DNA from: Roseibacterium elongatum DSM 19469
GTDB taxonomy: Bacteria; Pseudomonadota; Alphaproteobacteria; Rhodobacterales; Rhodobacteraceae
NCBI RefSeq assembly: GCF_000590925.1
Contig: NZ_CP004372.1
Coordinates: forward strand, 1,593,001-1,657,000
Length of the DNA stretch: 64,000 nt
Direction: 5' to 3'
The position numbers and the translations under genes are program-made. Shown here piece after piece: positions 6,292 to 20,253 of the stretch (the stretch's first letter is position 1; every line of letters begins with the position of its first letter). The notes below the pieces were generated by a model that worked only from the letters and a program-made list of their open reading frames with translations, did no database searches and had not been told where the DNA came from.

Positions 6292-7701
6292 TTAAAGCAC
6301 AGGCGCCACCAACCGCGCCAGAGGCGCGCCCAGGCGGATGGTGAGGGGTTGTTCGCCCAAGGTCTTGGTCAGCCGCGTGGCGTTTGCGAAATCGGCGCTC
6401 AGCATGTCTTCGACCTGCTCGGCCAAGGGGTGATCCAGAAACACCCCCATCGTTTCGAAGTTCAGCCGGAACGAGCGGTTGTCGAAATTCGTGCTGCCGA
6501 TCCCGCACAGCCCGTCATCGACCAGAAAGACCTTTTGATGCACGAACCCGGCCTGATACCGCCAGATGCCGACCCCGGCCGCGGTCAACTCGTCGAAATA
6601 GGCAAAGGCCGCCAGCCAGGGCAAATGGTGGTCGATGCGCTCGGGCAGCAGCAGGCGCACGTCACAGCCGCGCGCAGCGGCCAGTTTCAACGCCGACAGC
6701 AGCGCCAGGTCGGGCACGCAATAGGGGGAACTGATCCAGACCCGTTGGCGGGCCGCCGAGATGGCCGCGAAATACATCGCCGATGCGCCGTCCTCGTCCT
6801 CGGTGGGGCCGGTGGCGACGGTCAGGCCCTCGACCGTGCCGGTCTCCTGCGGGCGCGACCAGCCGATCTCGTTGCGCAGCGATTGCCCGGTCAGCCAGTG
6901 CCAGTCTTCGGCAAACACGACCTGCAATTGCAGCACCATCGGCCCGGTGATGCGACAGAACGTGTCGCGCCACGCGCCGATCTCGGGGTCGCGTCCAAGG
7001 TATTCGTCACCCACGTTAAGCCCGCCGATGAAGGCCTCGCGCCCATCGACGATCAGGGTCTTGCGGTGGTTGCGAAAGTTGATCTGAAGCCGGCGTACAA
7101 GGGGTGTTCGGCGTCGGCCCGCGACCCCCTCGATCCCGGCCGCTTCCATGCGCCGGATGGCGGCGCGGCTCAACCCGCTGGAGCCGACCGCATCGGTATA
7201 AAGCCTGACGCCGACCCCGCGCTCTGCCGCGGCGATCAGCCGGTCGATCATCTCGGTTCCGATCCTGTCGTCGCGAAAGGTGTAGAACTGCACCAGCAGA
7301 TCCGTCTCGGCCCGGTCGATGGCCGCGAACATGGCGTCGAAGGCAGCCTGACCGTCGATCAGCAAGTCGACGCTGTTGCCGGCGACGAAGGGCAGATTGG
7401 CGATGCGTTCGAACGGACGGCGATCAAAGCCCCCCACGGCCACCGCGTCCGCCCGCGCCGGGTCCGGCCGCTTGTCGTCGAACAGGTCGCGGCTGGCCCG
7501 CCGCAGGCGGCTTTTGCGCATGTAGCGGTGCGGCCCGAAAATCGCGTAGACGAAGATACCGATATAAGGCGCGCTCAGCAGGAACACGACCCAACCCACC
7601 GCGCCCTGCGGGGTGCGCGCCGATTGCGCCGCCCGCCAGCTGAGCATAACGGCAAGGGCAAGCCCCAGGGTCGAGACGACAGCGATCAACAGTGGCAACA
7701 T
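6292..7701 (-). CDS. cls: cardiolipin synthase (phospholipase D family)
   Basis: The enzyme condenses two phosphatidylglycerols, or transfers between phospholipids, to make cardiolipin at the inner membrane. The 469-residue product begins with two membrane segments (LPLLIAVVSTLGLALAVML and GWVVFLLSAPYIGIFVYAIF), as in ClsA proteins. Both HKD catalytic motifs are present: NHRKTLIVDGREAFIGG (about residue 215) and VHQKVFLVDDGLCGIGSTNFD cut to its HxK core (about residue 395), the second with the conserved GSTNFDNRS. Length and order fit the ClsA type. It precedes the EEP gene with an eight-base gap. Confidence 0.92.
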   Translation of the reverse strand: MLPLLIAVVSTLGLALAVMLSWRAAQSARTPQGAVGWVVFLLSAPYIGIFVYAIFGPHRYMRKSRLRRASRDLFDDKRPDPARADAVAVGGFDRRPFERIANLPFVAGNSVDLLIDGQAAFDAMFAAIDRAETDLLVQFYTFRDDRIGTEMIDRLIAAAERGVGVRLYTDAVGSSGLSRAAIRRMEAAGIEGVAGRRRTPLVRRLQINFRNHRKTLIVDGREAFIGGLNVGDEYLGRDPEIGAWRDTFCRITGPMVLQLQVVFAEDWHWLTGQSLRNEIGWSRPQETGTVEGLTVATGPTEDEDGASAMYFAAISAARQRVWISSPYCVPDLALLSALKLAAARGCDVRLLLPERIDHHLPWLAAFAYFDELTAAGVGIWRYQAGFVHQKVFLVDDGLCGIGSTNFDNRSFRLNFETMGVFLDHPLAEQVEDMLSADFANATRLTKTLGEQPLTIRLGAPLARLVAPVL

Positions 7702-7730
7702 GGCCCAAGCCTTTCCTGTCCCAAGTCGAC

Positions 7731-8867
7731 CTAGCGGGGTGGGGAGCCGACGCCGCGCCCCAGTTCCTGCATGACACTGATATGGCCCATCAGGTCGCGC
7801 ACGCTCAGAACGCCCTGCAATCGGCGCCCATCGGCCACCAGCAGCTTGCGCTGGCCCCCGCCGGCAAGCTTGTCCAGTGCCTCGGCCGCCGGGGCATGCG
7901 CGGCGATCATCGTGCTGTCATCCAGTGGGGCAAAGACATCGCCCACCGCTGTCCGCGTCCACTCGGCGCGGGGGACCGCCCGCATCAGCGCGGTGTCCAC
8001 ATGCCCCAGCAGGACACCGTTCTCGACCACGGGCAGGAAGCTGACGCCATGGGCCAGCATCACGTGATCGGCCACATCGGCCAATGTCATGTCGGGCTGC
8101 GCGCAATAAGGATTGGACGTCATCAACTCGGACACGCGGACCCCGCGCAGGCTGGTCTGCGTGACGAGATGCTGATAGGTGCCGCGGCTGGCATTCAGCA
8201 CGAAGAGGCCGATCAGGCCCATCCAGACCCCGCCGATGCCGCCGCCCGACATCACCGAAAACAGCCCCAGACCCATCAGGAACAGGGCAAAGACGGTGCC
8301 CGCCGTGCTGGCCTTGCGCGTCGCCTCGAGCATGTCGCCCGAGCGGTTCCAGAGCCAGGCGCGCAGCACCCGCCCGCCATCGAGCGGAAAGGCCGGCACG
8401 AGGTTGAACACCGCCAGGATCAGGTTGATCGAGGCGAGGTAAGCGACAAGCATCCCGGCCACCCCGTCACCGGCAACGAGCGCGATCAGACCAAAGGCCC
8501 CGGCCAGCGCGAAACTCATCGCCGGCCCGGCGATCGCGATCCAGAATTCCGAGGCGGCGCTTTGCGGCTCGTCCTCCAACTGCGCGACGCCACCGAACAG
8601 GAACAGGGTGATGCCCCCCACGCCCAGACCGTAGCGCCGCGCGACCAGCGAATGCGCCAGTTCATGCAGGATCAGGCTGCCGAACAGGCCCAGCATCGCC
8701 ACCACCGACAGGATCAGATACCCGGTGGGGTCGAGTCCCGGCAGAACCTGCGGGAAATAGCCCGAGGACAGGCTCCAGACGATCAGGGCGGCGATCAGCA
8801 GCCAACTGGCATCGATGCGGATTTCGAACCCGAACAGGTCGAACAGACGGATCGAATGAGAAAACAT
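7731..8867 (-). CDS. site-2 protease family metalloprotease with CBS domains
   Basis: This intramembrane zinc metalloprotease of family M50 (378 residues) has about six hydrophobic segments in residues 15-225. The zinc motif HELAHS lies at about residue 64 and the third-ligand region FNLVPAFPLDGGRVLRAWLW at about 165. A pair of CBS domains follows in residues 245-370 (VSELMTSNPYCAQPD, FLPVVENGVLLG, LQGVLSVRDLMGHI), which in relatives are thought to sense adenosyl ligands. I prefer the ATG at 8867 over the GTG at 8873 because AGGAGGT lies seven bases before it. The substrate is unknown. The gene is divergent from asnB. Confidence 0.88.
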   Translation of the reverse strand: MFSHSIRLFDLFGFEIRIDASWLLIAALIVWSLSSGYFPQVLPGLDPTGYLILSVVAMLGLFGSLILHELAHSLVARRYGLGVGGITLFLFGGVAQLEDEPQSAASEFWIAIAGPAMSFALAGAFGLIALVAGDGVAGMLVAYLASINLILAVFNLVPAFPLDGGRVLRAWLWNRSGDMLEATRKASTAGTVFALFLMGLGLFSVMSGGGIGGVWMGLIGLFVLNASRGTYQHLVTQTSLRGVRVSELMTSNPYCAQPDMTLADVADHVMLAHGVSFLPVVENGVLLGHVDTALMRAVPRAEWTRTAVGDVFAPLDDSTMIAAHAPAAEALDKLAGGGQRKLLVADGRRLQGVLSVRDLMGHISVMQELGRGVGSPPR

Positions 8868-8954
8868 CCCCACACCTCCTTTCGTCTCGGGCCGAGACCA
8901 CTATGGTGGGTCCCTTGAAAACTAAGCACTCGCCAAAGGAAAGGAAGGCCCCTC

Positions 8955-10481
8955 ATGTGCGGCTTCGTCTGTCTCTGGAATGTCGGAGACGAAACGCTCG
9001 CGTCGAAAATGATCCACAAGATCGCCCATCGCGGGCCCGACGCTGTGCAGGTCGCGCGGCTTGAGGGCGCGCCCGTGGTCATGGCCCATTGCCGCCTGTC
9101 GATCATCGGGCCCGAGGATGGCGACCAGCCGATCTACCAGACGGGCGACATGCTGGTGGCCAATGGCGAGATCTACAACCACGCTGACCTGCGTGCGATC
9201 CTTGGCGAAAGCGCCTTCGAGACGGAAAGCGACAGCGAAACGATCCTGCACCTGTTCCGCTCGGGCGAAAGCCGCTGGATTTCCAAGCTGGATGGCATGT
9301 TTGCCTTTGTGTTGGCCACGCCCAAGCGCGTGATCGCCGCGCGCGACCCTTTGGGCATCAAGCCGCTTTACGTGGCCAGGATCGGGGGCGGCCATGCCTT
9401 TGCCTCGGAACTCAAGGCGTTTGACGGGGTGCCCGTCGAAAGCGTCGAGGCGATCCCGCCCGGCACCCTTTTCGACAGCCGCGATGGCTGGCGGCACTGG
9501 TATCGCACGCCCCATGGCGCCGCCGAGGCCGAGGCCGAGTTCGACGTGGACCGCACCGCGCGCGAGTTGCGGCTGGTTCTGGAAGAGGCCGTGGCGAAAT
9601 GGATGGTCGCGGATGTCGAAGTGGGCAGTTTCCTGTCTGGGGGGCTCGACAGCTCGATCATCGCGGCCATCGCGCAGAAGGGGCTGCGCGATCAGGGACG
9701 CGGGCCGCTCAAGACCTTTTCCGTGGGCACCGAAGGCTCGCCCGACCTGCTGGCCGCGCGGCGCGTCGCCGACCACATCGGATCGGACCACCGCGAGCAT
9801 GTCTTCACGGCGCAGGATCTGGCCGACGCCATTCCGCATGTGATCTACCATCTCGAATCCGCCGATATCGACCTGGTGCGTTCGGCCATTCCGACGCTGT
9901 TCGCCGCCCAACTGGCCGTCAAAGAGGTCAAGGCCGTCCTGACCGGAGAGGGGGCGGACGAGCTGTTCGCCGGCTACGCCTATCACCACGACTACGTGGA
10001 CAACCCCCGCGCCCTGGCCGATGAGCTGACCCGCAGCCTGGGCACGATGCACAACATCAACCTGCAACGGGTGGACCGCGTGACCATGTCCGAAAGCCTC
10101 GAGGCGCGGACACCGTTCCTGGACCGCGAATTGATCGACTTCGCCCAGTCGATCCCGGCCAGCCTGAAACTCTGCCGCACCGACCCGCAGGCCAAGGAAA
10201 GCACCGGCGAGACGACCGAGAAATGGATCCTGCGCAAGGCCTGCGCCGATCTTTTGCCCGCCGATCTGGTGTGGCGCAAGAAGGCCCAATTCGACGAAGG
10301 CTCGGGCACGGTCGATACGCTGGCCGAGGCGCTGCGCCTGCTGACCGGCGCGGTGGGCGAGGTGGATCGCGACGGCGAAGGGGCGCTTTACGAACGCATC
10401 CTGCGCCAGCGGTTCGAGACCCCCGAGCGCATCCTTGCCGCGGCCGGCACCTGGGACAGCAGCGCGCGCGTGGCTGTCTGA
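8955..10481 (+). CDS. asnB: asparagine synthetase B-type, glutamine-hydrolysing
   Basis: The enzyme amidates aspartate using glutamine and ATP. The N-terminal class II glutaminase domain starts with the catalytic Cys2 (MCGFVCLW) and contains HRGPDA and NGEIYNH. The synthetase domain from about residue 195 contains the pyrophosphatase loop SFLSGGLDSSIIAAIA and the conserved GEGADELFAGY at about 330, with SLEARTPFLDRELID at about 380. At 508 residues it is slightly shorter than the Escherichia coli protein. The start has a purine-rich AAAGGAAAGGAAGG upstream. It stands alone on this strand before trmB, 71 bases away. Confidence 0.93.
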   Translation: MCGFVCLWNVGDETLASKMIHKIAHRGPDAVQVARLEGAPVVMAHCRLSIIGPEDGDQPIYQTGDMLVANGEIYNHADLRAILGESAFETESDSETILHLFRSGESRWISKLDGMFAFVLATPKRVIAARDPLGIKPLYVARIGGGHAFASELKAFDGVPVESVEAIPPGTLFDSRDGWRHWYRTPHGAAEAEAEFDVDRTARELRLVLEEAVAKWMVADVEVGSFLSGGLDSSIIAAIAQKGLRDQGRGPLKTFSVGTEGSPDLLAARRVADHIGSDHREHVFTAQDLADAIPHVIYHLESADIDLVRSAIPTLFAAQLAVKEVKAVLTGEGADELFAGYAYHHDYVDNPRALADELTRSLGTMHNINLQRVDRVTMSESLEARTPFLDRELIDFAQSIPASLKLCRTDPQAKESTGETTEKWILRKACADLLPADLVWRKKAQFDEGSGTVDTLAEALRLLTGAVGEVDRDGEGALYERILRQRFETPERILAAAGTWDSSARVAV

Positions 10482-15586: not shown

Positions 15587-17269
15587 ATGTGCGCTAAAGC
15601 AACCATGGAGGAATTCGAAGCCCTCCTGAACGAAAGCTTCGAAATCGACACGCCCGAAGAAGGCTCGGTCGTGCGTGGCAAGGTCATCGCCATCGAGGCG
15701 GGCCAGGCCATCATCGACGTTGGCTACAAGATGGAAGGCCGCGTCGATCTCAAGGAATTCGCAGCCCCCGGTGAAGCCCCCCAGATCGCCGTTGGCGACG
15801 AGGTCGAGGTTTACCTGCGCAACGTCGAGAACGCGCGCGGCGAGGCTGTCATCAGCCACGAAATGGCCAAGCGCGAAGCCGCCTGGGACCGTCTGGAAAA
15901 AGCCTATGCCGACGAAGAGCGCGTCGAAGGCGCCATCTTCGGCCGCGTCAAGGGTGGCTTCACCGTCGATCTGGGCGGTGCCGTGGCCTTCCTGCCCGGC
16001 TCTCAGGTCGATGTGCGCCCGGTGCGCGATGCCGGCCCGTTGATGGGCCTCAAGCAGCCGTTCCAGATCCTCAAGATGGATCGCCGCCGCGGCAATATCG
16101 TGGTCTCGCGCCGTGCCATCCTTGAAGAAAGCCGCGCCGAACAGCGCGCCGAGGTCATCGCCAAGCTCAACGAGGGCGACGTGGTCGACGGCGTGGTCAA
16201 GAACATCACCGAATACGGCGCCTTCGTCGATCTGGGTGGTGTGGACGGCCTGCTGCACGTCACCGACATGGCGTGGCGCCGCGTCAACGACCCCAAGGAA
16301 ATCCTGTCGATCGGCGAAACCGTCAAGGTGCAGGTCATCAAGGTCAACAAGGAAACCCACCGTATCAGCCTGGGCATGAAGCAGCTGCAGGCCGACCCGT
16401 GGGATGCCGTCGAAGCCAAGTACCCGCTGGATTCGGTGCATACCGGCCGCGTGACGAACATCACCGACTACGGTGCCTTCGTCGAGCTGGAGCCCGGCGT
16501 CGAGGGTCTGGTCCACGTGTCCGAGATGTCTTGGACCAAGAAGAACGTGCACCCCGGCAAGATCGTCTCCACCTCGCAAGAGGTCGAGGTCATGGTGCTG
16601 GAAATCGACACCGCCAAGCGTCGCGTGTCGCTGGGTCTCAAGCAGACCATGCGCAACCCGTGGGAAGTGTTCGAAGAACAATACCCCGTCGGCACGCAGG
16701 TCGAGGGCGAGGTCAAGAACATCACCGAGTTCGGTCTGTTCGTGGGTCTCGACAACGACATCGACGGCATGGTCCACCTCTCCGACCTGACCTGGGAAGG
16801 TCGTGGCGAGGACGCCATCCAGAACTACCGCAAGGGCGATGTCGTCCAGGCGGTCGTGACCGAAGTCGACACCGACAAGGAACGCATCTCGCTGTCGATC
16901 AAGGCGGTTGACGGCGATCCCTTCGCCGAGGCCGTGGACGGCGTGAAGCGTGGCTCGATCATCACTGTCGAGGTCACCGCGATCGAGGATGGCGGCATCG
17001 AGGTCGAGTATGAGGGCATGAAGTCCTTCATCCGCCGCTCGGACCTGTCGCGTGACCGCGCCGAGCAGCGCCCCGAGCGCTTCCAGGTGGGCGACAAGGT
17101 CGACGTGCGCGTCACCAATGTCGACGCCAAGTCGCGCCGTCTGGGCCTGTCGATCAAGGCCCGCGAGATCGCCGAAGAGAAAGAGGCCGTGGAACAGTTC
17201 GGCTCGTCCGATGCCGGCGCCTCGCTTGGCGATATCCTCGGCGCTGCCCTCAAGCAGAACAACGACTGA
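15587..17269 (+). CDS. rpsA: 30S ribosomal protein S1
   Basis: S1 binds mRNA on the small subunit and helps initiation on weak ribosome sites. The 560-residue protein begins MCAKATMEEFEALLNESFEI and contains six S1/OB repeats, seen as recurring VDLGG or FVELEPGVEGLVHVS-type units and D..RR.SLG.K ends (for example KRRVSLGLKQ and SRRLGLSIKA). The ATG at 15587 has only a distant AAAAGGA about 13 bases upstream, common for self-regulated rpsA. An insertion sequence lies 45 bases after the stop, inside the terminator. Many relatives have ihfB next; it is not here. Confidence 0.96.
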   Translation: MCAKATMEEFEALLNESFEIDTPEEGSVVRGKVIAIEAGQAIIDVGYKMEGRVDLKEFAAPGEAPQIAVGDEVEVYLRNVENARGEAVISHEMAKREAAWDRLEKAYADEERVEGAIFGRVKGGFTVDLGGAVAFLPGSQVDVRPVRDAGPLMGLKQPFQILKMDRRRGNIVVSRRAILEESRAEQRAEVIAKLNEGDVVDGVVKNITEYGAFVDLGGVDGLLHVTDMAWRRVNDPKEILSIGETVKVQVIKVNKETHRISLGMKQLQADPWDAVEAKYPLDSVHTGRVTNITDYGAFVELEPGVEGLVHVSEMSWTKKNVHPGKIVSTSQEVEVMVLEIDTAKRRVSLGLKQTMRNPWEVFEEQYPVGTQVEGEVKNITEFGLFVGLDNDIDGMVHLSDLTWEGRGEDAIQNYRKGDVVQAVVTEVDTDKERISLSIKAVDGDPFAEAVDGVKRGSIITVEVTAIEDGGIEVEYEGMKSFIRRSDLSRDRAEQRPERFQVGDKVDVRVTNVDAKSRRLGLSIKAREIAEEKEAVEQFGSSDAGASLGDILGAALKQNND

Positions 17270-17294: not shown

Positions 17295-17314
17295 AAAGGC
17301 CCCGCGATGCGCGG
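17295..17314 (+). terminator. left half of the rpsA terminator, split by an insertion sequence
   Basis: AAAGGCCCCGC followed by GATGCGCGG forms the ascending arm and loop of a hairpin. Its partner, GCGCGGGGCCTTTTTCTTT, is now at 19212-19230 on the other side of the insertion element. Removing the element and one copy of the 9-bp duplication rebuilds a stem of about 10 bp followed by a T-run, a textbook Rho-independent terminator. Confidence 0.8.
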
Positions 17315-17340
17315 CCAGCCCTTTGCAGTAAATGATGCAG
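17315..17340 (+). repeat. left terminal inverted repeat of the insertion sequence
   Basis: This end begins CCAGCCCTTTGCAGTAAATG and continues ATGCAG. It matches the inverted right end at 24 of 26 positions. An inside dyad (AGGTTGGCCA at 17350-17359 with its complement at 17365-17374) follows and could block transcription entering from rpsA. Confidence 0.92.
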
Positions 17341-17418
17341 TGATTTCTTAGGTTGGCCAGATTTTGGCCAACCTTCCCCCTGACCACACAGTATGTGGCG
17401 GTTTTCCAGGGGTTTTCG

Positions 17419-19149
17419 TTGAACGCACTCTCGAAAATATCTTCGACAGATCCGAAACGGCGGTTGCCGCAGCCTTGCCTTGGGATCGACATCAACTTCT
17501 GCCGCAATCCGCAATGCGGGCTATTTACGGTGCCGCCAGACCCTTATGACAGAAGAGGGAAAAACCGCAGCACTGTCAAATCGAACCAACCGCACGGAAA
17601 GGTGATAGGCTCTGGATCTGAGAAATCGTATGCGTGCGGAGCCTGCGGCCATCATTCCATTCTCAAGAACAACCGGGCCATCGTTCAGGAATACAAACGC
17701 CTGCGGAAGGTTTATGTAGCGGCGACGCCGAAAGATGCCTGCCAGAACGAGGGATGCTGTAATCACGGCAAGGGCCGCGATGCGTATCCTGACCTCTATC
17801 GCAAGTCGGGGAAGACCGCGAACGGCGCACAGCGGTGGAAGTGTAAGGCCTGCCTGAAGTCCTATTCAGTGGGATCGAGTATCCGCCGGCAGAAGCGCAG
17901 CCACACCAACCGCGACATCCTATGGCTTTTGACGAACGGCACCCCGATCTCGAAGATTTGCGATTTCACGGAGATGTCGGCGCGGGATGTGTATGCCAAG
18001 ATCGACTTCATCTACGACCAGGTCATCGACTTCAACGCCACGCGCGAAAGGATGTTCGAGGTCGTGCGCTGGGAAACCGTCGGCCGCCGCTTTGCCACCG
18101 ACTCCCAAACCTTGCATCTCAACTGGCCGAATAAGCGCACTCGGGCACAGATCGCCGCACAGCACCTCTGCACGGCCCACGCGAATAGCGGATACATCAT
18201 GGCCGCTCATCTTGCACTCGATCCCGATGTTGATCTACCAGATGTCGAGGCAGAGATGATTGCCGTCGGGGATTTCGCCTTACCCCGCGCGTTCCGCCAA
18301 CAGGCACGGGTATGGCCTGAGTCTGAGTTCAAAAAATACATAGACAAGATCACCCAGAAGGTCTCCATCCATCCTTTGGAGGCACCTGAAGTCGATCTCG
18401 GCCTCCAACTACCCCATCGCGGTGCCTTGGTGCGTCAAGACATTCTGCAAGCCGCTCACGCCTTCTATTTGCGTCGATGCCTCGGAAAGGGAGATGAGCG
18501 ATTTGTTTTCGTTCTCGACGGGGATTCCGGTCTGGCGCTGTCCTTCATTTCCGCCTTCGCGCCCCGGATCAAAGAAGGAAAGGCCGACATTGCAGTCGTC
18601 GCGTTCGACAAGCACAAGTCCAACGATCAACGGAATATGATCGTCAATGACGGCAAGATCGCGTTGGAACTCGCGTCAGGCATTGGAAGATCTCAATGGA
18701 GCACAATGCCCGCGGAAGACGCGATTAAGATCACTGATCATATCATCAGCCAGATGCTCGTCGGTCATCCTCTCGACGCTCCGTTCGATTGGCCGTTTCA
18801 TACCAAGGCAGAGCCAAACCGAAAGGTGCGGATCCTGACAGATCGGCCCGAGATGGACCCAGATCGGCGAGCCCGTCTAATGCGCCTCGCAACCCTACGC
18901 AGCGTCGATCAATACTTTCACAAAGTGCGCAGTAATCTGCGCTTCGCCGCGCGTCCGGGGCATACACCCAGCAACAATGGCCGGGCTTGGGACCGACACT
19001 ACCTCTACAATCCTGGGACAATGGTGAAAATCATCGAGATCTACCGCTTCGTCCATAACTGGATGGGGCATCACAAGACCAAGGAAACGCCGGCGATGAA
19101 ATTGGGGCTGGCGAAAGGTAGAATCTACGCGAAAGACCTCTTCGCCTGA
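17419..19149 (+). CDS. transposase with N-terminal zinc ribbons
   Basis: The product (about 576 residues) carries several cysteine clusters: CRNPQC near the N-terminus, CGACG, CQNEGCCNH and WKCKACLKSYS. The last resembles the IS1-type zinc ribbon followed by a helix-turn-helix (TNRDILWLLTNGTPISKICDF). Acidic residues for a DDE active site are plausible in FATDSQTLHLNW and FVFVLDGDSG, with a later glutamate not fixed. I chose the TTG at 17419, six bases after AGGGG; a GTG at 17395 and TTG at 17353 are alternatives. The gene is full-length and intact, so the element may be active. Confidence 0.85.
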   Translation: MNALSKISSTDPKRRLPQPCLGIDINFCRNPQCGLFTVPPDPYDRRGKNRSTVKSNQPHGKVIGSGSEKSYACGACGHHSILKNNRAIVQEYKRLRKVYVAATPKDACQNEGCCNHGKGRDAYPDLYRKSGKTANGAQRWKCKACLKSYSVGSSIRRQKRSHTNRDILWLLTNGTPISKICDFTEMSARDVYAKIDFIYDQVIDFNATRERMFEVVRWETVGRRFATDSQTLHLNWPNKRTRAQIAAQHLCTAHANSGYIMAAHLALDPDVDLPDVEAEMIAVGDFALPRAFRQQARVWPESEFKKYIDKITQKVSIHPLEAPEVDLGLQLPHRGALVRQDILQAAHAFYLRRCLGKGDERFVFVLDGDSGLALSFISAFAPRIKEGKADIAVVAFDKHKSNDQRNMIVNDGKIALELASGIGRSQWSTMPAEDAIKITDHIISQMLVGHPLDAPFDWPFHTKAEPNRKVRILTDRPEMDPDRRARLMRLATLRSVDQYFHKVRSNLRFAARPGHTPSNNGRAWDRHYLYNPGTMVKIIEIYRFVHNWMGHHKTKETPAMKLGLAKGRIYAKDLFA

Positions 19150-19158
19150 AGAGGAAAC

Positions 19159-19185
19159 AACCGCCGAAGAACATCTTCGGCGGTT
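19159..19185. terminator. perfect inverted repeat after the transposase gene
   Basis: AACCGCCGAAGA (19159-19170) and TCTTCGGCGGTT (19174-19185) form a 12-bp stem with a three-base loop, nine bases after the transposase stop and just inside the right terminal repeat. It probably ends transposase transcription or shields the element from outside readthrough; there is no T-run. Confidence 0.55.
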
Positions 19186-19209
19186 GCAACATTTACTGCA
19201 AAGGGCTGG
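19184..19209 (-). repeat. right terminal inverted repeat of the insertion sequence
   Basis: Read on the minus strand this end begins CCAGCCCTTTGCAGTAAATG then TTGCAA. It pairs with the left end and is followed outside by the second copy of GATGCGCGG at 19210-19218. Confidence 0.92.
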
Positions 19210-19443
19210 GATGCGCGGGGCCTTTTTCTTTGGGTTTTGCGATTAGTTGTGGATAAGCGGCGCGCAGCGCCGGACCTGTCGCAAAGCTGTTACCGGTGGC
19301 GTGTTCCCTTCGCCCCGCAGCGGGGGTGATCCCGCGATGACATCCGGTCTGTCCCCACAGCCCTGCCGGATGTCACCAATACCGGCCAGCCCTGCACATC
19401 AAGCCCCTGTGCAGGGCTGTGCCCCGCCAACCGGGTTGGCGGC
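19210..19443. other. gene-free spacer with DnaA-box match and two long dyads
   Basis: After the target duplication and the T-run of the old rpsA terminator, this spacer holds TGTGGATAA at 19248-19256, a perfect DnaA-box sequence on the minus strand. Two strong dyads follow: a 10-bp pair at 19338-19347 and 19366-19375, and a 10-bp pair AGCCCTGCAC/GTGCAGGGCT at 19388-19397 and 19409-19418. The latter is the best candidate terminator for mipZ, which ends at 19444 on the minus strand. I see no gene here. Confidence 0.55.
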
Positions 19444-20253
19444 TCAGAAATCCACCTCGACACCGGGCAGGTTCAACGCACGGACAAGGTCGCGCAACTC
19501 CTGCCGGGCCGCGAGGTTCGAGATGTTCAGCCGTTCGACCCCCAGTTCGCGCAGGTCCAGCAATGTCATGCCCGTGGGGAACAGTTCGCGGAAAATCACG
19601 CGCTCGTTGAAACCCGGCGCGACGCGGAAGCCGATGCGTTTCGACAGGTCCTCCATCGCGCGCCCGACCTTGCGCTTGTTGTGCATTTCCTGCGCGCCAA
19701 GGCGGTTGCGCACCACGATCCAGTCCATCGGCTCCAGCCCGGCGCGGGCGCGCAACTGCCGGGCATGCCAGACCATCTCGGAATAGACGCTGGGGCCCTT
19801 TATCTCGTAGGTCTCGGGGTCGATGCGCGCCAGCAGGTCGAAATCGACGAAACTGTCGTTCATCGGCGTGATCAGGGTATCGGCAAGGCTGTGGGCCACT
19901 TGGCTGAGGCGCGTGTGACTGCCGGGGCAGTCGATGACGATGAAATCGCAACGCGCCTCGTGCTCGGCCACGGCAGCCGACAGGCGGCGATCATAGATGT
20001 TCTCGCCCGGCGCCAGATCATCGGGGCTGAGATCGGGCAGATCCATCAGGATCGGACAGGCCAGATCCATCTCACGTTTGGCAATGGTGTTCTGCCGGTT
20101 CTCGACATAGCGACCGAAACTGCGTTGTCGCAGGTCCAGATCCAACGCGCCCACGACATGCCCCAAACGCGCCAGAGCCGTCGCCACATGCATCGCGGTG
20201 GTCGATTTCCCAGACCCGCCCTTTTCGTTCCCAAGGACGATGATATGTGCCAC
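19444..20253 (-). CDS. mipZ: MipZ-type division-plane positioning ATPase
   Basis: MipZ is a ParA-family ATPase which in Caulobacter forms a polar gradient through ParB and inhibits FtsZ assembly away from midcell. The 269-residue product opens with the deviant Walker A GNEKGGSGKSTTAMHVA (residues 8-24), then LDLDLRQRSFGRYVENR, a close match to the MipZ signature. It has a Walker B-like FIVIDCPGSHTRL (about residue 107) and PMNDSFVDFDLLARIDPETY (about 130). The start is a GTG at 20253. It is a single gene, divergent from the TPR gene. Plain ParA is excluded by the extended LDLRQRS region. Confidence 0.9.
   Translation of the reverse strand: MAHIIVLGNEKGGSGKSTTAMHVATALARLGHVVGALDLDLRQRSFGRYVENRQNTIAKREMDLACPILMDLPDLSPDDLAPGENIYDRRLSAAVAEHEARCDFIVIDCPGSHTRLSQVAHSLADTLITPMNDSFVDFDLLARIDPETYEIKGPSVYSEMVWHARQLRARAGLEPMDWIVVRNRLGAQEMHNKRKVGRAMEDLSKRIGFRVAPGFNERVIFRELFPTGMTLLDLRELGVERLNISNLAARQELRDLVRALNLPGVEVDF

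Follow-up and report, generated by a model that had tools for sequence, protein, structure and literature searches.

A 1,895-bp insertion sequence, at positions 17315-19209 of the window (the whole 64-kb stretch of DNA analysed here), interrupts the predicted terminator of the gene that we take to be rpsA, and the comparison of insertion sites among its relatives lends good support to the targeting of terminator hairpins by this family of elements. The best overall explanation of these observations is probably that the element, which has a DDE-like transposase, belongs to a family not characterised so far that seeks out terminator hairpins and exchanges the host terminator for hairpins of its own.

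The element has the attributes of an insertion sequence, namely terminal inverted repeats, a target duplication and a single transposase gene (Table 1), and this status is also backed by a relative present as identical 1,900-bp copies at two sites of one genome. The size and the perfect 9-bp direct repeats given in the original prediction hold, but the 26-bp inverted repeats described there are imperfect, with matches at 24 of 25 positions (24/26 over 26 bp). A longer transposase frame of 598 aa opens at 17353.

Table 1. Features of the insertion sequence and of its surroundings in the window.
Feature	Positions	Strand	Basis
rpsA (presumed 30S ribosomal protein S1) frame, 560 aa; its terminator is the target	15587..17269	+	open reading frame
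Upstream (5') arm of the interrupted rpsA terminator (AAAGGCCCCGCG)	17295..17306	+	inverted repeat, 12/12
Left copy of the 9-bp target duplication (GATGCGCGG)	17306..17314	+	sequence
Left terminal inverted repeat	17315..17340	+	24/25 match
Left inner hairpin, position conserved in relatives; candidate inward terminator with a weak T-tail	17350..17374	+	repeats, stem counts, fold
Transposase, 576 aa, TTG start	17419..19149	+	open reading frame (P0001)
Right inner hairpin, terminator-like, facing inward	19158..19186	-	repeats, terminator scan, fold
Right terminal inverted repeat	19184..19209	-	inverted-repeat match
Right copy of the target duplication	19210..19218	+	sequence
Downstream (3') arm of the interrupted terminator (CGCGGGGCCTTT); further T behind it	19214..19225	+	sequence, inverted repeat
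Convergent gene downstream of the element	19444..20253	-	open reading frame

The name rpsA reflects our reading of a protein with S1 repeats and has no database match behind it, and the product of the convergent gene is presumably a ParA/MipZ-like ATPase. The duplication starts 36 bp after the rpsA stop codon, and the two arms that now lie on either side of the element are complementary at 12 of 12 positions. Rejoined, the empty site is predicted to fold at -24.8 kcal/mol (z -4.65), a value equalled by none of 200 shuffles. Behind the rpsA stop, all four other genomes available for the genus (L053-L056) have a GC-rich hairpin with no interruption, with a run of TTTTTT behind it in L053, TTTTT in L055, TTT in L056 and TT in L054; in L053, the downstream DNA matches, by eye, that at the convergent gene. 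The intact hairpin in these four relatives and the fold of the rejoined site together indicate that the terminator reading is right and that the element is a newcomer. Thus, the split of the rpsA terminator proposed in the original prediction is confirmed, and the check on empty sites suggested with it finds the reconstructed hairpin where it was expected.

Since the element is present only once in its own 3.56-Mb genome, the suspected habit of entering terminators was assessed in relatives. Among 56 loci examined, 34 (the window included) have two ends and a 9-10-bp duplication, 18 contributed the left end only and four were unusable (L086, which has two ends and no duplication, L119, L051 and L062). 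Ends were called from a tip profile, inverted repeats and duplications while ignoring hairpins; calling from repeats alone missed many copies and was replaced by the tip profile. The score of a target is that of its best stem whose midpoint lies no more than 5 nt from the middle of the duplication, with score cut-offs chosen after the sites had been seen. At a score of at least 21, a strong hairpin is split by 27 of the 34 two-ended copies (26/33 without the window's own), as against 152/5,100 random positions of the same loci (Fisher 2.6e-34), 99/3,982 intergenic positions and 348/9,546 positions lying 10-80 nt past predicted stops of the same loci (p 1.7e-32), the gene prediction behind this last control being crude, with 9/34 sites inside a predicted frame, for which reason its counts of gene context were set aside. 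At cut-offs of 18, 21, 24, 27 and 30, the sites that pass number 28, 27, 24, 18 and 11 of 34, respectively. The left-only copies agree, with an A-run and a GC arm at the expected distance in 13/18 as compared to 9,446/341,701 positions (2.8%). For example, split targets include AAAAGGCGACCCCCGAGAGGGTCGCCTTTT (L101), AAAAGGGAGGCCTCGCGGCCTCCCTTTT (L120) and AAAGGCCCTGTATCGCTACAGGGCCTTT, the last from a Pseudomonas plasmid (L049) that carries a relative at 29% identity. These counts bear out the suspected habit, so that both checks put forward with the original prediction favour it.

The insertions are also placed with precision, as the hairpin axis is offset from the duplication centre by 0.1 nt with an sd of 1.2 nt (28 sites scoring at least 20, in a measurement that allowed 8 nt either way). 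Genome G1085 has two copies (L114 and L115) with no difference over 1,900 bp, each of which interrupts a terminator of its own, and a copy in another genome (L113), like them at 1,891/1,900 positions, sits in a third. Near-random insertion, from which the copies in terminators persist as the least harmful, would make use of the facts that intergenic DNA, in which terminators are located, tolerates insertions and that surviving copies alone are visible; but so few of the post-stop positions carry such a hairpin, so narrow a placement around the axis would not result from selection, and the identical elements in different terminators suggest recent events. We therefore regard survivorship on its own as extremely improbable.

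No column of the aligned targets exceeds 0.91 bits (29 sites, omitting L046, L047, L099, L116 and L124, which were chosen as hairpin-less and are likewise left out of the junction test below), and the family thus has no fixed target sequence; what the targets have in common is self-complementarity, GC-rich arms and A- or T-runs. The two arms pair at 9.7 of 13 positions within a site as compared to 7.8 between sites (p 8e-10, all 34 sites). The element might simply favour a GC-rich palindromic composition at its 9-bp cut, as described for Tn5 and with no hairpin formation. This has in its favour that the best structural matches of the transposase are those of ISCth4 and Tn5 and that the targets of Tn5 are often palindromes according to one report (PMC1525189). 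Yet the self-complementarity extends far past 9 bp on each side and above that of sites of like composition, and the low column information also speaks against such a preference, which we consider unlikely. A run of at least four T on the right or A on the left lies near 29/34 sites as against 6,649/113,911 positions, as would be expected of active terminators, and it could be argued from this that targets are found via transcription, through a paused polymerase, a nascent RNA hairpin or an R-loop, and not through DNA structure. However, the cut has its midpoint at the dyad, away from the 3' end, where polymerase pauses, and the runs occur on the right at 21, on the left at 16 and on both sides at eight of the 34 sites, so that no single direction of transcription is prominent; this route appears quite unlikely.

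Targeting is a strong preference and not a rule. Seven of the 34 sites have a stem score below 21, of which L046 (Rhizobium plasmid), L047 (Marinobacter plasmid), L099, L116 and L124 show no good hairpin, and the remaining two are L109, with a score of 20, and the nested L088, with a score of 17. The pattern of A-run and GC arm is absent from 5/18 left-only flanks; it is missing from the left flank of L122, even though this element equals L121 at 1,899 of its first 1,900 bases. Genome G1130 holds two copies (L116 and L117) alike at 2,349/2,354 bp with a common right flank and different left flanks, and one of the pair is without a matching duplication. In L088 (~6460-9080 in transposase orientation; the same place as L006), a second element adjoins the tip of a first and sits in a hybrid hairpin made of that tip and the rest of the terminator.

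The hairpins noted earlier at both ends of the element are real by the folding criterion, the left one lying within a fold of z -4.5 and the right one within a fold of z -8.3 on the minus strand. Comparable stems recur in the relatives, as examined in 49 left ends (without the near-copies L115, L117, L122 and L123) and 36 right ends (with the near-copies L113, L114 and L115 included). A perfect left inner stem of at least 8 bp is present in 35/49 elements as against 78/980 windows inside the transposase gene, and 34 of these 35 stems begin 30-39 nt from the tip; at the right end, a stem of at least 8 bp that reads inward is present in 29/36 as against 97/980 control windows. Such an inner stem is absent from 14/49 left and 7/36 right ends. 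For stems of at least 8 bp, the only ones for which tails were counted, the inward tail holds 4.5 T of 8 on the left, with 2.6 T before the stem and 2.8 in the outward tail, and 4.5 T of 8 on the right, with 0.9 and 1.2, respectively (inward tail versus T before the stem, p 6e-6 left and 4e-6 right). In an alignment (A4) restricted to 23 of the 49 left ends, which were selected for a hairpin of the GGTTGGCC type, 98.3% of cells pair, partly by choice of the sequences; compensatory cells number 17 as compared to 5.0 in shuffles, above all 500 of them, and pairs with a compensatory change number 3/10, which is no excess, as 306/500 shuffles reach three. Other subclades have unrelated stem sequences at the same place inside the left tip.

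These features of the inner hairpins fit terminators that would stop transcription from outside the element. They could instead be transposase-binding or translation-blocking leader structures, given that they lie just within the inverted repeats and that the left hairpin of the window stands ~45 nt before the TTG start and lacks a good T-tail. The T-rich tails directed inward at both ends, which exceed the outward tails, and the unrelated stems kept at the same distance by different subclades count against such a role, which we find somewhat unlikely. Reading the inner hairpins as terminators, we infer an exchange, wherein the element cuts the host terminator at its dyad and brings new ones. 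The original suggestion that hairpins at the ends may stand in for the lost terminator gains support from the fixed distance and the inward T-rich tails in most relatives, but for the left side of the window copy the case for exchange is weak. The left inner hairpin there is stable with a poor T-tail (TCCCCCTG), and a terminator scan calls the right inner hairpin and not the left (five calls in total versus 2.1 in shuffles), leaving its strength as a terminator doubtful; given this poor tail, rpsA readthrough into the element is possible.

The tips of the element might also re-pair with the split arms and thereby re-form terminators, or targets might resemble two abutted tips. The hairpins at the junctions are better than the average for shuffled tips, in shuffles that preserve single-base content only, at 21/29 left and 23/29 right junctions (Wilcoxon 1.8e-4 and 4.4e-5; 23/34 and 26/34 over all sites), and the second element of L088 in its hybrid hairpin would agree with such pairing. 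Against this, L088 is one case, and the effect is modest and partly expected for any tip ending in GCCCTTT beside generic terminator arms. The left junction of the window is no better than its shuffles (-13.8 versus -14.5; z -0.6), and restoration of the terminator by pairing of tip and arm was therefore dropped for this copy. We consider re-pairing doubtful as a general account.

Exchange of the host terminator for inner hairpins, the reading that we prefer, would proceed as follows. The transposase would recognise a terminator by its palindromic or hairpin DNA and make a staggered cut of 9-10 bp around the hairpin tip. The host terminator would be destroyed, and the inner hairpins would halt transcripts arriving from either side, such that transcripts of the genes alongside would keep a proper end and the transposase gene would be protected from transcription that starts outside the element. 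The host would thus pay little for an insertion, even for one that lies 36 bp past the end of an essential gene. As a weaker addition, the tips and the host arms may partly re-pair. It is possible, though a little short of likely, that a large and unnamed family works in this manner throughout, with a transposase that reads a DNA hairpin or cruciform and not a sequence and cuts at the dyad, ends that carry inward substitute terminators, and terminators that serve as safe docking places for toxin-antitoxin or defence-like cargo.

The 34 two-ended elements range from 1,282 to 3,987 bp in length, and several longer relatives, L109 among them, have passenger genes behind the transposase, including toxin-antitoxin pairs. 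Pfam matches were obtained for 7/10 cargo proteins scanned and include a Gp49/HTH_37 pair (L127), RelE (L125), PIN_3 (L129), Abi_C (L103), DUF6338 (L105) and part of Glyoxalase_8 (L087); by eye, a frame in L003 resembles the DUF6338 protein of L105. A PADLOC scan of three of the 10 cargo proteins gave no match. A compound arrangement is seen in plasmid pEP1 of Acidovorax temperans (L135, 6815-12896), where 6.1 kb between two matching tips hold the gene of a copper-binding protein and others, and where the outer flanks resemble terminator halves with no common duplication, which looks as if two copies had recombined.

The predicted structure of the transposase has an RNase H-like, DDE-like fold. 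Foldseek gave no match at E <= 0.001, and the best structural matches, obtained by re-alignment of Foldseek's own list and hence confined to the families on it, are the ISCth4 (IS256-type) and Tn5 (IS4-type) transposases, at ~10% identity, which denotes likeness of fold only and leaves out the N-terminal zinc-ribbon part. Eight conserved cysteines at residues 26-145 of P0001 suggest two zinc ribbons ahead of the catalytic domain as a candidate DNA- or hairpin-binding part. Pfam has no match to the transposase. Among NCBIfam models, the IS256_N_4Cys domain scores 25.5 bits against a cut-off of 27, and IS1 (NF033558) scores 30.6 bits against a cut-off of 100, over 70 residues of a 199-residue model; membership of IS1 was rejected, with scores of 25.5-39.8 bits against this cut-off in 8/8 proteins. 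No IS1182 model is among the NCBIfam matches at E <= 0.01, and an outcome of the IS1272 (IS1182) type, in which the hairpin is partly deleted with no duplication, was likewise rejected in view of the 9-10-bp duplications at 34/56 loci.

Protein alignments were built from 17 (A1) and 59 (A2) of 117 sequences found and from 11 (A3) of 120 among the matches listed; the wider family accounts for 1,069 of the 7,996 candidate proteins scored. A scan of genome contigs found one locus, viral contigs scanned with two alignments yielded no relative, and plasmid searches with P0186, P0131 and P0050 gave no further copies. A distant relative (L062), at ~26% identity to the L049 transposase, occurs in Enterococcus and Staphylococcus plasmids (90 and nine, respectively, of 131 records with a match), and its element ends were not found by end-calling. 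Several plasmid copies are annotated as 'hypothetical proteins', and current models (NCBIfam, Pfam) barely detect the family. No description of it was found in the open-licence literature, which leaves subscription journals and ISfinder outside the scope of this statement, and the available portion of PMC3281130 holds nothing on terminator targets.

If the proposed exchange is correct, it raises the testable question of target choice by DNA structure in a DDE transposase and may explain a low-cost spread of cargo by such elements. Several known systems share some of its features. The IS1 family has a zinc-ribbon/HTH stretch similar to residues 127-196 of P0001, but the protein studied here is much longer. 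In Group IIC introns, a rho-independent terminator stem-loop is part of target choice (PMC7923331); these are retroelements that insert downstream of the stem-loop, whereas the present family has a DDE-like transposase and inserts in the loop. The REP-targeting ISPsy8 is described (PMC1525189) as entering a predicted hairpin on its axis of symmetry and duplicating 3 bp, and its targets form a repeated family with a consensus, in contrast to the unrelated terminator sequences and 9-10-bp duplications seen here. The nearest published habit is that of IS1272/TnSha1 (IS1182 family; PMC4923244), which enters hairpins with no primary sequence consensus, several of them terminators confirmed by RNA-seq, makes a blunt cut that leaves the hairpin partly deleted with no target duplication, and may carry a passenger gene. 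Entry into hairpins or terminators without a consensus and the presence of passenger genes are thus common to both, but the elements described here differ in that they cleanly duplicate 9-10 bp around the dyad and have inward-facing end hairpins. Dyad duplication combined with replacement hairpins would then represent a second manner in which terminators are exploited by insertion sequences, beside the stem deletion published for IS1272.
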